Source: Bacteriovorax stolpii
GTDB lineage: Bacteria > Bdellovibrionota > Bacteriovoracia > Bacteriovoracales > Bacteriovoracaceae
Assembly (NCBI GenBank): GCA_945905815.1
Contig: CAMDQH010000001.1
Coordinates: 1-64,000 of the forward strand
DNA length: 64,000 nucleotides
Direction of reading: 5' to 3'
Shown: one piece after another, positions 41,729-50,394 of the stretch
Layout of the letters: each line of letters opens with the position of its first letter
How positions within the stretch are numbered: the stretch's first letter is position 1
Made by a program: the position numbers and the translations under genes
Notes under the pieces: model-generated
Told to the model about the DNA's origin: nothing
What the model saw: only the letters and a program-made list of their open reading frames with translations
Databases searched by the model: none

Positions 41729-42556
41729 TCAAAGAATTAAGTCCATCGTAACAGCGATTTCGACTGACTTCTTAGTCCACGGATCCATGAAACTCAGTGA
41801 CTTGGCCAATAATTTTAGGCCGTCTTTATTTTTATTGCCTCGGCCATATTTTGGATCACCCATAATAGGACTTCCAATAAATTCAAGATGACGTCGAATC
41901 TGGTGAAGTCTTCCTGTCTCAATTTTGACCAAAAGGAGGCTACATCCATTTCCGTTTGCAATTGCCTCAAAGTGCGTGATGGCCACTTTTCCATCAAGAG
42001 GCTCATTTACAGTTTGCTTGTGACCTCTTTCTATCTCACCTTTAACGATGGCCTGATAGGTTTTATAGACTTTATTTTTTTGAAACAAATCACTTAATTT
42101 GGCAGCACCTTCAACGGTGTATCCAATAATCATTAAGCCTTCAGTTTCCCGATCGATTCTGTGTATTAGGTAGGCTTCCTTTTGCTTAAATTTTTCTACA
42201 TACCTAAGGAGAGAAGTGTGATCTGAGACCTGAGTTCCTTGAGGTAAAACCCCAGCAGGCTTAAGCCATATTCCATAATGTAAAGTTTCGACCAAACATT
42301 TTGCATCGGATAATTCAGGAAAGATGAGAATCCTTGGATCATAATACATAACAAGTTTATCTTCTGGAGAAACTTGCAAGTCCAAGGAGCGAGCACGAAG
42401 TATTTTTCCTTTACCGCCCTTCTGAAGCCAAACAGCTCCCTTCGAGGCGGCATCGGCAAGAACATCTAAATTCATGGAGGTTGATTTTTGAAGCACTTCA
42501 CCTAATTTTGTCTTAATAGTGAAGTGTTTAGAAACCAATATATGAAAAGTTCGCAT
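41729..42556 (-). CDS. RluA-family pseudouridine synthase
   Basis: HRIDRETEGLMI catalytic motif; GRLHQIRRHL. Confidence 0.9.
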   Translation of the reverse strand: MRTFHILVSKHFTIKTKLGEVLQKSTSMNLDVLADAASKGAVWLQKGGKGKILRARSLDLQVSPEDKLVMYYDPRILIFPELSDAKCLVETLHYGIWLKPAGVLPQGTQVSDHTSLLRYVEKFKQKEAYLIHRIDRETEGLMIIGYTVEGAAKLSDLFQKNKVYKTYQAIVKGEIERGHKQTVNEPLDGKVAITHFEAIANGNGCSLLLVKIETGRLHQIRRHLEFIGSPIMGDPKYGRGNKNKDGLKLLAKSLSFMDPWTKKSVEIAVTMDLIL

Positions 42557-44850
42557 TATGAAAGAAAGTTTCCACCCTCAGAGATCATTTTACTGAAGCC
42601 GGCCGGTTGTAAATCTTTTTTCATTAGCCCATGAAGATTTTTAAATTGATCAAGAATTTTTCCTTCTTCAATACTAAGCATCTTTTGAATTTCAAGAATA
42701 GCTTCTCTTAATTCATGGTCTTTTTGCGAAGTCTGAAAAGAAAAAGCACTCTGTTCAGCTGGTTGCTTCTCATTTACCATGCTCAACTTAGATAAAAGAA
42801 TATCTAGTTGCGAAAGCTTTTTATCGAGCGTCGAAACATTAAAATCTAATCGTGCCAGTTCGTCTTTGTACCTGATTGCAAGCTTCTGCTGATTCTCATC
42901 CAAAGGCGGAAGATGGGCCAAAAGCGAATTATTCAGAGAAATTAATTTAGCCTTCACTTCCATTAGTTCAAATTTTATTTTTTTGTAATCCGCTTTAACT
43001 GAATCGAGTTGTCCTAAAATGTCCATAGATTCCCTGCTCTTTTTTATATTTTCAAGTGTAATCTGATGCAAACGAGAAGCTTCCATTTTGAAATCATCAC
43101 ACTGCTGGAGAACTGTTTTATTTATATGAAGAAGGCTTTCACTTCTGTCCAATGTAAGGATAAATGAATCACGCAATTCATTGGCAGTCTTAATTTCTTC
43201 TCGTGTGATTAAGCGTTTTTCTTCTTCCGCTTCTTTCAAACTGGCAATTGTTAAATTACAAGAATGGTTCTCTTTTTCCAAAGCATGTATTGAATGAAGA
43301 CATTCAATCTTCTCATTACTGATACGTTCAAAAATATTGGCGAGATCTGTGTATAGGTCATTCAAATCATGATTTTTGAAATTTCTTTCTAGAATTCTTA
43401 ATTCGTCCTCATTTAACTGGTTTTCATTCCATAAAGAAATGAAGCGATTAATTGAAAACTTAGTCAGAGCGACTTGTTCATTAATGGCTTCTTTAACGGA
43501 AACAAGAGGATAAAAGAAAACCATCACTCTCCCTTCACGATTAGCACTTATTGGTGTCACGTACATTTCGTAAGGTTGAGCAGGAGTTAGTTCATCTTGT
43601 TTAACTTTGACCGGATATATTCCAGCTATTTTATTTACCATTGCCTGGTAGATTGGATCATCATCCAGGTTCAGATAATCTCTAACATAATCCCAATTAA
43701 AAGCATCACTTCGAACTTCTTCCTCGCTTAAGTACAGTTGATCTAGAAATAAGTTATTATGCCATGTAAGTTTAAAATTATAATCTATCATGCAACCAGC
43801 AAAAGGCAGACCTTCATGAAGAAGAGTTCCAAGGTTGAGCTTGATTTTCAAATCGTCTAAGAGGCGAATAATATCCTCACGTGTATTTTCTGAATAGTGA
43901 TCAACCATAAAGCGCTGGTCGCCCATTATGCCCTTTTCAATAACACTCTTCACTTCTACTTCAATCTGAACGGCGATTTTATTTTGCTGCCAGCGAAACA
44001 GGTACGCCAATCCCATCCAAGCAGTAACCAAAAATGCGATTAGACTTGAAAGCATGATGATTAGCTGGTTTTGCTTTTGAGAACGCATTCCTTTCAGGTT
44101 GGCCGATTTTTTATCTGCATCGACTAACCATTGGGCTAAAGCGATTTCGGCCTGTTTAATATGGACTTTAAGATTGCGCGAATGTGAATTGAGATTTTCC
44201 AAAAGATCAAATTCATATCTCATGGATTCAATACGTTCATTAAGAGATTTTTTTTCACCATCTGTTAGAGATGAATTTGCAATAAGCTTGGCCATGTTAT
44301 TTAAATCGTTTTTGAGATACGTTACCTGGATACTCCCGCCCACATTTCTGGAATCAAGATCGCCAATACGATCTTTCATTTTTCCAGTAATAATCGATAC
44401 ATTTTTATATTTTCTTGTGGTTGCAACATTATGCAGGTTGTTTATTTTTTGCTTTAGAACCTTTAAGGCATCTGATGGATCACTCATTCCTGAATTACTA
44501 TTAATAAGCTTGTTGAAAGTCCGAATGTTTAATCCAAGATCAGTGCTTACCTTTAGCTCCAGCATCTCCTCTGTTTCAACAATCGTTTGCGTTAATTCAC
44601 GCATCTTATCGTGCGCTTTATCGGCTTCTGCCCTTAAAAGATACTTTCCGATCTTGTCAAAATTGCTGCCTTGTTTGAGATCTTGAATGAGGGTATTTAT
44701 TTTTGTAACTTGAACTTCTTCCATATTTTCTAGATTGTTTAATCTGAACGCGAAAATGGTAGAACCAACGCATACTATTATGGCGATAATAAAGATTCCG
44801 TGGACGACCCACTGCCCTTGGTTAAAGGTCTTCTTCCAATCCATGATCAA
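42556..44850 (-). CDS. two-TM, PAS-like and coiled-coil signalling-like protein without a recognised output domain
   Basis: N-terminal TM, extracytoplasmic helical region, second TM (LIIMLSSLIAFLVTAWMGLAYLF), PAS-like block, long coiled coil. Confidence 0.65.
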   Translation of the reverse strand: MIMDWKKTFNQGQWVVHGIFIIAIIVCVGSTIFAFRLNNLENMEEVQVTKINTLIQDLKQGSNFDKIGKYLLRAEADKAHDKMRELTQTIVETEEMLELKVSTDLGLNIRTFNKLINSNSGMSDPSDALKVLKQKINNLHNVATTRKYKNVSIITGKMKDRIGDLDSRNVGGSIQVTYLKNDLNNMAKLIANSSLTDGEKKSLNERIESMRYEFDLLENLNSHSRNLKVHIKQAEIALAQWLVDADKKSANLKGMRSQKQNQLIIMLSSLIAFLVTAWMGLAYLFRWQQNKIAVQIEVEVKSVIEKGIMGDQRFMVDHYSENTREDIIRLLDDLKIKLNLGTLLHEGLPFAGCMIDYNFKLTWHNNLFLDQLYLSEEEVRSDAFNWDYVRDYLNLDDDPIYQAMVNKIAGIYPVKVKQDELTPAQPYEMYVTPISANREGRVMVFFYPLVSVKEAINEQVALTKFSINRFISLWNENQLNEDELRILERNFKNHDLNDLYTDLANIFERISNEKIECLHSIHALEKENHSCNLTIASLKEAEEEKRLITREEIKTANELRDSFILTLDRSESLLHINKTVLQQCDDFKMEASRLHQITLENIKKSRESMDILGQLDSVKADYKKIKFELMEVKAKLISLNNSLLAHLPPLDENQQKLAIRYKDELARLDFNVSTLDKKLSQLDILLSKLSMVNEKQPAEQSAFSFQTSQKDHELREAILEIQKMLSIEEGKILDQFKNLHGLMKKDLQPAGFSKMISEGGNFLS

Positions 44851-45828: not shown

Positions 45829-46710
45829 TTAGTGAACATCGTGTTCATGGGCCATCTGAGTTACTCCGTTTGACAGGAGAGCAGTAGGTCCACCATCTTT
45901 TTCGGTGAACCCATATAAAAGTTTAATAAAGTTTTTCTGTAATTCATTTTTTGTTTCAGATAGGAAAAAAGTATCAAATGCCTCGGCAGAAACTTCCACT
46001 TTTTTGATTCCACCGAGCACATGCGTAGTTGTACCGAGGAAATTCTGGATAGTTTCTGTCAGAGTATTCGTTACATTTTGATACTGTTTCTCATTCTGAT
46101 ACATATTAATCAGGAGGTGATTTTCTTTGACCCCAAAACGAGTTGCGAGCAGCTTTATAAGGGAATATGAATCGGTAATGGAAGATTTATCAGGAGTTAC
46201 AATAACCCATCGGTTATCGCAGAAGGCATTCAAGGTAAGCGCTTCACGAGTGACTCCCGCAGGGCAATCTAGAAGGATATAATCGTATTCGTGCTCATGA
46301 GATGAAATGACATCAATAATAATTTCATCAAACTTCATTTTACTTTCAAATATTTCAGTCGAACCATTACAAGCAGGAAGTAGGTGAAAATTTCCTAACT
46401 GAATCACAACTTCTTCAAAAGTTGCTTCTCCAGAAAGTAGTTTTTCAAATTTATTATCAAGTGGAAGACCAAGTTTAATTGCTGTATTTGAGAGGTTTGA
46501 ATCGCAATCAATCAGAAGTGTACGGTGGCCTGCTTTCGCAAGTTCCATAGCCGTTTTTAAGGCGATAGAGGTCTTCCCTACTCCGCCTTTGCCGCCGGTA
46601 ATAGAAATTTTTCTACAAGGCTTAAAACCATCTTTAAGGAGTGATCTTGAGGGATTCTTGAGATTTTTCTCAGAGGAAAACGATTGTAGCCACTCACTGG
46701 TCTTATGCAT
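45829..46710 (-). CDS. flhG: MinD/ParA-like ATPase, FlhG/FleN type
   Basis: deviant Walker A GGKGGVGKTS; between flhF and fliA. Confidence 0.85.
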   Translation of the reverse strand: MHKTSEWLQSFSSEKNLKNPSRSLLKDGFKPCRKISITGGKGGVGKTSIALKTAMELAKAGHRTLLIDCDSNLSNTAIKLGLPLDNKFEKLLSGEATFEEVVIQLGNFHLLPACNGSTEIFESKMKFDEIIIDVISSHEHEYDYILLDCPAGVTREALTLNAFCDNRWVIVTPDKSSITDSYSLIKLLATRFGVKENHLLINMYQNEKQYQNVTNTLTETIQNFLGTTTHVLGGIKKVEVSAEAFDTFFLSETKNELQKNFIKLLYGFTEKDGGPTALLSNGVTQMAHEHDVH

Positions 46711-46773: not shown

Positions 46774-48315
46774 TTAGAACTGAAAAAGACCTGCCATCAA
46801 TCTCTCAGCCGTTGCACCTTCGATATCATCTGGAACCACTGGGCCTGTTCCGAAGAATTTTAGAGGCAACTTGTTGTGGGCCTTATGAACGTTGAAAAGA
46901 GCTCCAAAATTCATGCACAGATCCACATGAGAAATGATAACACCATCAACCACGTCCTTATATCGGGCAATTATTTTTCGGTTATATAATTCAGAGTGAA
47001 TTGCCGAAAGTGTGCCTAGTACTTCTACGTACTGGAAACCACGTTTAAGTGTCTCAACGAATTTCTTTGTTTCGTCTGTATACTTAGAATTTAGACGTAT
47101 ATCGACTAGGACAGACTTGCCGGCTTCCGTAGCTTTCCTACATAGGCCCACAACTTCCGAAAAGTTTTGAACTTTCTCAACTTTAATTCCAAACACTTGT
47201 GCTGCGAAATCGGTTGAAGCATTATTTTGGGCGTCTTGGGAATATTGAACCACAACAACATCTTTTTTCAAAACAGCGATTTTCATACCCATAGTACTTT
47301 GTCCCGAAGCGGCTTCAGAAACGAGAACAGTTATTACTGGATCGCCATTATCAACTTTTGCAAAAAGTGGGATTCCAGTATTTATAGAACCGGCCATTTC
47401 TTTCAAGGCAAATTCAAAAATAACATCTGGATTATCCATTTCTTCTTTAGTCAGTTCATAATTCGCTTTTTTAATTAAATCCAAAATATGAGACTCATCA
47501 ACATCCAAAGTTTTTAGTGTCGTTCTCAACTGATACACACCCTTAGCTTCGTTGAGGTGCTTTTGGTTAAATTGATAATTCTGTGAAAGCTCCAAAATCT
47601 TTTGTTCTAAAAGTTCAATTTTGTGTTGTTGGGTGCGCATTTCTTGGCGAATTTCATTATAGGCTTCGCGGCTAACAGCATTCGAAGTTGAAGCAACTTG
47701 TGGGGCCTGATCACGGCGAACAGAGATTTCAACATGATCTTCCACGTCCTGTTTGCTTTGTGCTGGTCGGGCCCTGCTAGTTGGTGCCATTTGTGGCGGT
47801 TCTGAATATTTTCCATGATTTTTAACAGGACGGGAATATGTCACTGGTTCATCATCATTTGAATCGGATTCAAAGCCCGAATCTTCACCATCTGTTAAAA
47901 AATCATCCAAACTGTTTTTAATCATTGAAGATGTTTTATTAGTCACGTCAGCAAGGCTAGCAGTACCTTTGGCAAGAGTATTTACAACTTTATTAAGCCC
48001 GATACTTCCATAGCCAGCATTTTGGCCAGCGTTCTGTGATCCGTTATATTTAGTAATTGTTTCCTTAATATTTGAAGCTGACTTCTGATATAAGGCTTCT
48101 TTTTGATCGTTGTTAAGCACTTTGTCCACCTTTGCCTTTTTCTCGAAACTTCTTTCCGAGATTGCAGCAGTAATCTCTATGCGCTTTTTCTTAAACGCAC
48201 CTTTAAGACCACTGTTAGTAATAGTCTTAAGTATAATTGCATCAGGACCCAATTCAAATTTAACTGCTTTGAGAGCTTCCTCTAATGTATCGGCTTCGAA
48301 TTTCTTAACGAACAT
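46774..48315 (-). CDS. flhF: FlhF-like SRP-family protein with degenerate GTPase motifs
   Basis: N-terminus MFVKKFEADTLEEALKAVKFELGPDAIILKT; position between flhA and flhG; NG-like C-terminal domain lacking GxGKT, DTAGR and TKxD. Confidence 0.82.
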   Translation of the reverse strand: MFVKKFEADTLEEALKAVKFELGPDAIILKTITNSGLKGAFKKKRIEITAAISERSFEKKAKVDKVLNNDQKEALYQKSASNIKETITKYNGSQNAGQNAGYGSIGLNKVVNTLAKGTASLADVTNKTSSMIKNSLDDFLTDGEDSGFESDSNDDEPVTYSRPVKNHGKYSEPPQMAPTSRARPAQSKQDVEDHVEISVRRDQAPQVASTSNAVSREAYNEIRQEMRTQQHKIELLEQKILELSQNYQFNQKHLNEAKGVYQLRTTLKTLDVDESHILDLIKKANYELTKEEMDNPDVIFEFALKEMAGSINTGIPLFAKVDNGDPVITVLVSEAASGQSTMGMKIAVLKKDVVVVQYSQDAQNNASTDFAAQVFGIKVEKVQNFSEVVGLCRKATEAGKSVLVDIRLNSKYTDETKKFVETLKRGFQYVEVLGTLSAIHSELYNRKIIARYKDVVDGVIISHVDLCMNFGALFNVHKAHNKLPLKFFGTGPVVPDDIEGATAERLMAGLFQF

Positions 48316-48318
48316 TCT

Positions 48319-50394
48319 TTATAACCTCACCGTACCTAGGGACCTAATATTTACATCTGGACTAAGCTCATTATGACTCACCACTATCATGTTGGGAATA
48401 AATTTTTCAGTCAACTTTTTAAAGTGACGACGAATAACTGGTGAACAAAGAACCACCATTTTTTCCCCTTGTGATGTTGCTTCTTCAATTTTTTCATTGA
48501 GTGAAGCAAGTATCGTTTGGGTCATTTTTGGATCAAGATTCAATTGGGTCCCATGGTCAGTATGAATAATTGATCTGGCCACAGCTTCTTCAAGTGCTCT
48601 ATCCAGTGTAAATAATGGAACATCACCAGCTGAGCTTTTAATTTTTTCAGTAATTGAACGATAAAGAGATTGGCGCACGTACTCAGTCAAGGCTTCTGGA
48701 TCCTTCGAAGAAGTTCCAAATTCTGCCAATGTTTCAAGGATTGTACGCAAGTCACGTATGGCAACACCTTCTCTTAAAAGATTTTGAAGAACCTTAAGGA
48801 CTGAACCAAGAGTCATGATATCTGGAACAAGATCTGAAACAATTTTTGGATTTTCTTCTTTAAAGTTATCAAGAACCTTAACTAGTTCCTGACGACCAAA
48901 TAGTTCATTTAAATTCGTTTTAAGAACTTCAGTCAAATGTGTAGCAACGATCGTAGAAAGATCGACCACTGTATACCCATTATACTGAGCCTCATCTTTA
49001 CGATCATCGGTTATCCAGATCGCTGGGAGACCAAACACTGGTTCTTTGGTGGCTTGGCCGTCCATTTGCTCGATAACTGTTCCTGGATCCATTGCCATCA
49101 AATGATCTGGTAGAAGTTCGCCCTTGGCAATTTCGACTCCTTTGAGTTTAACAGAGTAGCCACCAGGTTTAAGCTCGAGATTATCCTTAATTCTGACAGA
49201 AGGAATAATAACACCCCAATCAATCGCAAATTGTTTTCTAATATGAGAAATACGCTCAAGAAGGTCACCATTTTGCTCGGCATCTACAATGCTTACGATT
49301 CCGTAACCAACCTCAAGTTGAACCAATTCAACTGGTAAAAGTGATTCAAGTGTTTCAACTTTCGCCTTAGTTTCAGCAACAGAGTTGGATTTCTTCGCTG
49401 CTAAAGCCAGAGCTTTGTTCTTTTCGATTTTAAAACCAGTAAAACCGATGAAACCACCCATTAGGATAAAAGGAAGCCCAGGAAAACCGGGAATAAGTCC
49501 AAACACCGTCATTGAAGCAGCAGTTATATAAAAGGCTTTTGGGTTGGCAGAAAATTCGTTTCCAACCTGTGCACCAAGACCTTCATTGTTTGAGTTTCGA
49601 GTAGCAATAATACCTGCAGCAGTAGAAATAATCAGTGCTGGAATTTGAGCAATGAGACCATCACCAACTGTTAGTAATGTAAAAGTTTGAGCTGCATCGC
49701 TGAAACTCATATCTTGTTGAGCAACTCCAATTATTATTCCGCCAATCATGTTAATTGCAGTAATTAAAATACCTGCAATGGCTTCTCCTCGTACAAACTT
49801 CGAAGCACCGTCCATGGATCCGTAAAAGTCTGCTTCCTGTGCAACCTCTGCACGACGACGTTTAGCTTCTTTCTCGTCAACCAGACCAGCGTTCAAGTCT
49901 GCATCAATTGCCATCTGCTTACCTGGCATTGCATCTAAAGTGAATCGTGCTGATACTTCAGCTACTCGACCAGCACCTTTTGTAATAACCATAAAGTTAA
50001 TAACAACTAAAATAATGAAAATGACAATCCCGACCGCATAGTTACCACCAACAACAAAATCACCAAAAGCTTTGATGATTTCACCAGCGGCAGCCGTTCC
50101 ATCGCTAGCACCATGAAGCAGAATATTTCGAGTTGATGCCACGTTAAGCGACAAGCGAAAGAGAGTTGTAATAAGGAGAACAGTTGGAAAAGTCGAGAAA
50201 TCCAAAGGCTTTTTAGCATAAACAGCTGTTAGTAAAACACCAACAGAAATTGCAATTGAAAGCGAAAGCATCATGTCTAGAAGTAATGGCGGTATTGGAA
50301 CAACCATAACTCCCAAAACAACCATCAGGCCAATCGCAATAACGACATCAGAGTTCTGAGTTAAGGCCTTAAATTTTCCAAAGAATCCTTCCAT
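48319..50394 (-). CDS. flhA: flagellar biosynthesis protein FlhA
   Basis: AEVSARFTLDAMPGKQMAIDADLNAGLV; 691 aa. Confidence 0.96.
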   Translation of the reverse strand: MEGFFGKFKALTQNSDVVIAIGLMVVLGVMVVPIPPLLLDMMLSLSIAISVGVLLTAVYAKKPLDFSTFPTVLLITTLFRLSLNVASTRNILLHGASDGTAAAGEIIKAFGDFVVGGNYAVGIVIFIILVVINFMVITKGAGRVAEVSARFTLDAMPGKQMAIDADLNAGLVDEKEAKRRRAEVAQEADFYGSMDGASKFVRGEAIAGILITAINMIGGIIIGVAQQDMSFSDAAQTFTLLTVGDGLIAQIPALIISTAAGIIATRNSNNEGLGAQVGNEFSANPKAFYITAASMTVFGLIPGFPGLPFILMGGFIGFTGFKIEKNKALALAAKKSNSVAETKAKVETLESLLPVELVQLEVGYGIVSIVDAEQNGDLLERISHIRKQFAIDWGVIIPSVRIKDNLELKPGGYSVKLKGVEIAKGELLPDHLMAMDPGTVIEQMDGQATKEPVFGLPAIWITDDRKDEAQYNGYTVVDLSTIVATHLTEVLKTNLNELFGRQELVKVLDNFKEENPKIVSDLVPDIMTLGSVLKVLQNLLREGVAIRDLRTILETLAEFGTSSKDPEALTEYVRQSLYRSITEKIKSSAGDVPLFTLDRALEEAVARSIIHTDHGTQLNLDPKMTQTILASLNEKIEEATSQGEKMVVLCSPVIRRHFKKLTEKFIPNMIVVSHNELSPDVNIRSLGTVRL

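Follow-up and report, generated by a model that had tools for sequence, protein, structure and literature searches.

A candidate pseudo-GTPase form of FlhF maintained by selection across the Bacteriovoracaceae

In the current view, FlhF works as a dimer that depends on GTP and is switched off by FlhG; whether a flagellum truly needs GTP to be placed has been debated on the basis of point mutants, which vary from species to species. What, then, is to be made of an flhF gene in which a sequence-only reading had found every GTPase motif apparently lost? The gene lies in the window, as we call the whole 64,000-nucleotide stretch of Bacteriovorax stolpii DNA analysed here, among the following neighbours:

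48319..50394, minus strand: flhA (TIGR01398, 896 bits)
46774..48315, minus strand: flhF, 513 aa, predicted pseudo-GTPase FlhF (ORF, TIGR03499, PF00448, AF2 and Foldseek)
45829..46710, minus strand: flhG, MinD-like ATPase with intact Walker A and without the DQAxxLR helix
45018..45803, minus strand: fliA, sigma-28 (TIGR02479, 273 bits)

By gene order (flhF directly downstream of flhA and upstream of flhG and then fliA), by its N-terminal B/FID domain and by its SRP-type NG fold, the protein is an FlhF orthologue. The profiles recognise it only in part. TIGR03499 matches its N-terminus (E 2.6e-14) with 53.9 bits, far under the curated equivalog cut-off of 174, and PF00448 matches its C-terminus with 28.1 bits over profile positions 56-195, the P-loop end being unrecognised. 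The position and N-terminal signature first read from the sequence agree with the ORF, strand, frame, TIGR03499 match and neighbour profiles. The gene was also rightly taken to be complete, in frame and unlikely to be a simple pseudogene, as the ORF is intact and the protein is conserved across the Bacteriovoracaceae. Adjoining fliA is a 764-aa membrane coiled-coil protein (42556-44850, minus strand) without a Pfam or NCBIfam family.

The most conserved region of the family FlhF is its N-terminus, and in Shewanella it is the first 44 residues of FlhF that bind FliG (PMC11236974):

48136..48315, minus strand: N-terminal B/FID domain, residues 1-60, mean column entropy 0.76 bits

To read the GTPase motifs we used two alignments, one of 98 FlhF proteins and one of 74 distinct Bacteriovoracaceae sequences with 50 FlhF from other Bdellovibrionota; the 74 represent most genera and were drawn as distinct sequences rather than as every genome. 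The former motifs lie as follows:

47293..47319, minus strand: former G1/P-loop SEAASGQST, residues 333-341, with Lys replaced by Q339 in 74/74 family members
47215..47244, minus strand: former G2 region YSQDAQNNAS (canonical DTxRxxA), variable and shortened in the family (alignment)
47083..47103, minus strand: former G3 DIRLNSK (canonical DTAGR), of which the Asp alone is kept (alignment)
46975..47007, minus strand: SAIHSELYNRK, residues 437-447, a family-specific conserved motif in place of the canonical SATTRDxEL
46915..46932, minus strand: former G4 SHVDLC (canonical TKLDE), Asp kept in 74/74, Lys lost
46819..46854, minus strand: G5/closing loop FGTGPVVPDDIE, retained (alignment)

At the position of the P-loop lysine, all 74 family sequences carry Gln, whereas the other Bdellovibrionota FlhF carry Lys in 50 of 50; 21 outgroup sequences were first chosen with a P-loop filter, and the loci redone without that filter gave 30 of 30. 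The first P-loop Gly has become Ser in 72 of the 74, and the G4 Lys is lost in almost all, mostly to His, so that the pattern is mostly [ST]HxD. None of the patterns of a functional SRP-type GTPase is found: G1 GxxxxGK[ST], G2 DTxRxxA with its catalytic Asp and Arg, G3 DTAG or G4 TKxD. The first readings of SEAASGQST, YSQDAQNNAS, DIRLNSK and SHVDL are borne out by these alignments, but the broader statement that every motif is lost holds only in part. Gone are the P-loop Lys, G2, G3 beyond its Asp, and the G4 Lys; kept are G338, S/T340 (73/74), the G3 Asp D405 (73/74), the G4 Asp D465 (74/74) and the G5/closing loop FGTGxVxPDDIE. With neither the P-loop Lys nor the G3 Gly left, and with the catalytic DTxR of G2 lost, the family FlhF is very unlikely to hydrolyse GTP.

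Could the canonical motifs simply have been misaligned, and be found at some other place in the protein, or in a further FlhF? We found nothing in support of this. The window FlhF has one SRP54-type domain only, and no intact G1-G4 motifs occur elsewhere in it. An AF2 model built from 75 sequences has pLDDT >90 across most of the NG domain and puts SEAASGQST exactly at the P-loop, flanked by strand 328-333 and helix 339-349. A search of the PDB by sequence with the window FlhF alone gave nothing useful; Foldseek with the model returned SRP GTPases and the GDP-bound FlhF 8r9r (target TM 0.83), an NG fold like that of solved FlhF. Furthermore, a search of the entire genome (3.0 Mb, with an estimated completeness of 100%) gave three SRP54-family matches, namely this FlhF, FtsY and Ffh; the latter two have intact canonical G motifs, and there is therefore no spare FlhF. 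Alignment, AF2 topology, the genome search and the intact Ffh and FtsY together refute the misalignment reading, to which we attach next to no probability.

How widely is this form of FlhF distributed? The family, Bacteriovoracaceae, was identified from the named loci, and 129 of its genomes were sampled; the sampled order and class contain Bacteriovoracaceae only, so that searches at wider ranks add nothing beyond the family. An FlhF homologue is present in 119 of the 129 genomes and FlhA in 117, of which 116 also have the FlhF homologue. The TIGR03499 cut-off is reached in 0/129 family genomes, as against 117/293 genomes of the phylum sample. In a tree made without the P-loop columns, all the pseudo-FlhF sequences fall on one side of a single branch (SH-aLRT 100), with one change and a long stem, and the simplest reading of these sequences would be that the loss happened once, ahead of the diversification of the family. 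A shortened FlhF (about 350-380 aa) in another Bdellovibrionota group (L044, L047, L048, L081-L090) has the P-loop Lys intact and G2 and G3 altered.

The long stem also bears on whether the gene is relaxed or decaying, FlhF being jobless in this lineage and a passenger of the flhA-flhG operon. The strong acceleration of the sequence along that branch and the TIGR03499 score far under cut-off both speak for decay. However, the selection data largely refute it: purifying selection on the NG domain is strong, with dN/dS of approximately 0.01-0.05 in most close species pairs (approximate values, dS being high in many pairs), far below 1 and lower than in the linker. The new motifs, moreover, are invariant across the 74 sequences, one genus still has FlhF after losing FlhA and flagellin, and few copies are broken: a premature stop occurs in G011, and another in a weak piece of G138. 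Decay is, in our judgement, highly improbable. Gln in 74/74 against Lys in 50/50, together with this dN/dS, is more than chance, and by sequence the family-wide pseudo-GTPase form of this well-studied protein is real.

New motifs occupy the dead site itself: SExxSGQ[ST][ST]M, LSAIHSExYNRK and SHLDLC. Since the new family-specific conserved residues (H440, E442, Y444, N445 and C467) sit in the same segments as the former motifs, the GTP site appears to be rebuilt and not left to drift.

The partner protein has changed too:

46678..46710, minus strand: FlhG N-terminus MHKTSEWLQSF, with a family-wide WL(L)S motif replacing DQAxxLR

DQAxxLR is the N-terminal helix of FlhG whose Gln activates FlhF (PMC12826062), and none of the family FlhG examined has it at the N-terminus. 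A W-L motif near the start, searched for with a strict pattern, is present in 65/71 family FlhG, and several of the other six look by eye like variants of it; among outgroup FlhG, the W-L motif occurs in 0/17 and DQA in 5/17. Walker A is intact in the family, except in the deviant FlhG of one species of the same genus as the window (L024:3115-3939, plus strand), in which AGSPGSGKT stands in place of GGKGGVGKT and the WLLS motif is absent. We had considered loss of the activator helix as the sole signature of a dead FlhF, and rejected it: sister families whose FlhF is intact also have FlhG without DQAxxLR, as does Pseudomonas with its FleN (PMC12713375). The loss is thus not specific to a dead GTPase, and the FlhG evidence is supporting and not decisive.

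What does the altered protein do? We think it probable that a true flhF orthologue turned pseudo-GTPase once, on the Bacteriovoracaceae stem, and is now an adaptor between basal body and pole without a nucleotide switch. The residues that bind phosphate (the P-loop Lys and the first Gly), those of the catalytic G2 DTxR region and the G4 Lys are gone from the sequence. Under purifying selection, the protein has kept its NG fold and the N-terminal domain that binds FliG, along with the new motifs where G1, G4 and the SAT-loop used to be. FlhF would then be a constitutive two-ended adaptor, its N-terminal domain holding FliG/FliF and its NG domain, in one fixed conformation, holding a polar landmark or itself without GTP-driven dimerisation. 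Control of flagellar number would be left to the FlhG ATPase, which perhaps touches FlhF through its new N-terminal WLLS helix instead of stimulating GTP hydrolysis.

We infer the polar-scaffold role from published work on FlhF, notably the nucleotide-independent binding of the NG domain to the polar landmark HubP in Shewanella (PMC11236974); in our searches TIGR03505, the FimV/HubP model, had no match anywhere, controls included. FlhF of V. alginolyticus and P. aeruginosa does not need hydrolysis for positioning; unlike hydrolysis, GTP binding seems important for localisation in Vibrio and Pseudomonas (PMC6092412, PMC12713375), which counts against a nucleotide-free FlhF. So does the loss of Vibrio T306 or D439, which abolished flagella, as their counterparts S/T340 and D465 are kept in the family, a retention that fits some residual nucleotide binding.

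These same residues are the basis of the main rival account, in which FlhF is a ligand-gated, non-hydrolysing sensor whose altered pocket binds GTP, GDP or ppGpp through D465, D405, S/T340 and the closing loop. The near-invariance of these residues and the retained G5 loop favour it, the pocket segments hold some of the most conserved columns of the NG domain, and a structure of the related GTPase Ffh contains ppGpp (7o9f, among the structural matches). Such a pocket would, however, have to work without the P-loop Lys, lost in all, without the first Gly in 72/74 and the G4 Lys in almost all, and with a deleted or variable G2. We regard the sensor as unlikely, though residual guanine-nucleotide binding is possible given S/T340, D405, D465 and the closing loop, and we consider the family FlhF likely to be free of nucleotide. 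The original proposal of a nucleotide-independent scaffold thus survives as far as hydrolysis goes, which looks very unlikely, and is weakened by the retained residues and loop as far as binding goes.

The genus that keeps FlhF without a flagellum (g53; three genomes, 94-99% complete) shows the protein in another setting. FlhA, the FliG C-domain and flagellin were not found in the three genomes, nor FlhG beside their flhF, and the pseudo-FlhF is kept with most of the new motifs, adjoining FliA (L114, L115, L116). Beside this flhF-fliA pair is a relative of the membrane coiled-coil protein at window 42556-44850. Upstream lies an ORF of about 170 residues whose low-confidence model resembles FliM/CheC, and the fliF loci (L171, L172, L173) carry a shortened FliF-like gene. 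BLASTP of the FliM-like ORF against the window FliM, and of the FliF relic against the FliF of the window genome, gave no or marginal matches, so that these identities rest on fold and Pfam evidence. Across the three genomes the sequences suggest a non-flagellar use of the FlhF module, and FlhF, FliA, the FliM/CheC-like ORF and the FliF-like gene are possibly a non-flagellar relic of the basal body. That the dead GTP site was rebuilt to bind something new, such as a polar partner or the WLLS helix of FlhG, which would leave FlhF free of nucleotide, and that FlhF survived the loss of the flagellum in this genus to make up a non-flagellar polar ring with the FliF-like and FliM-like relics, is a tentative and rather doubtful extension. 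A degenerate FliF-like gene also occurs in a small-genome family member (G118, 1.6 Mb; L174:6096-7691, plus strand) with no FlhF or FlhA match.

Compared with FlhF of B. subtilis (2PX3), S. putrefaciens (8R9R), V. alginolyticus and P. aeruginosa, the window protein has the same gene position, B-NG architecture, FliG-binding N-terminal domain and NG fold, but no P-loop Lys, no G2, only the Asp of G3 and no G4 Lys, and its partner FlhG is without DQAxxLR. Other Bdellovibrionota FlhF share the operon and the N-terminal domain (40-50% identity over residues 1-60, two compared), whereas they have the P-loop Lys in 50/50 and only 14-18% NG identity to the window protein (two compared). A further likeness is eukaryotic: in degenerate septins and the p190RhoGAP pseudoGTPase domains the fold is conserved after loss of nucleotide-handling residues, with compensating changes at the dimer face in the septins (PMC10731463, PMC5593906), although these GTPase families are unrelated to FlhF. 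The literature searched yielded no bacterial pseudo-GTPase of the SRP type.

Members of the Bacteriovoracaceae have been described with a single polar sheathed flagellum (PMC4511183). A whole family in which FlhF has shed its GTP-handling residues but stayed under selection is a natural experiment on what is essential in the FlhF-FlhG circuit, and through it a nucleotide-free positioning mechanism becomes directly testable.
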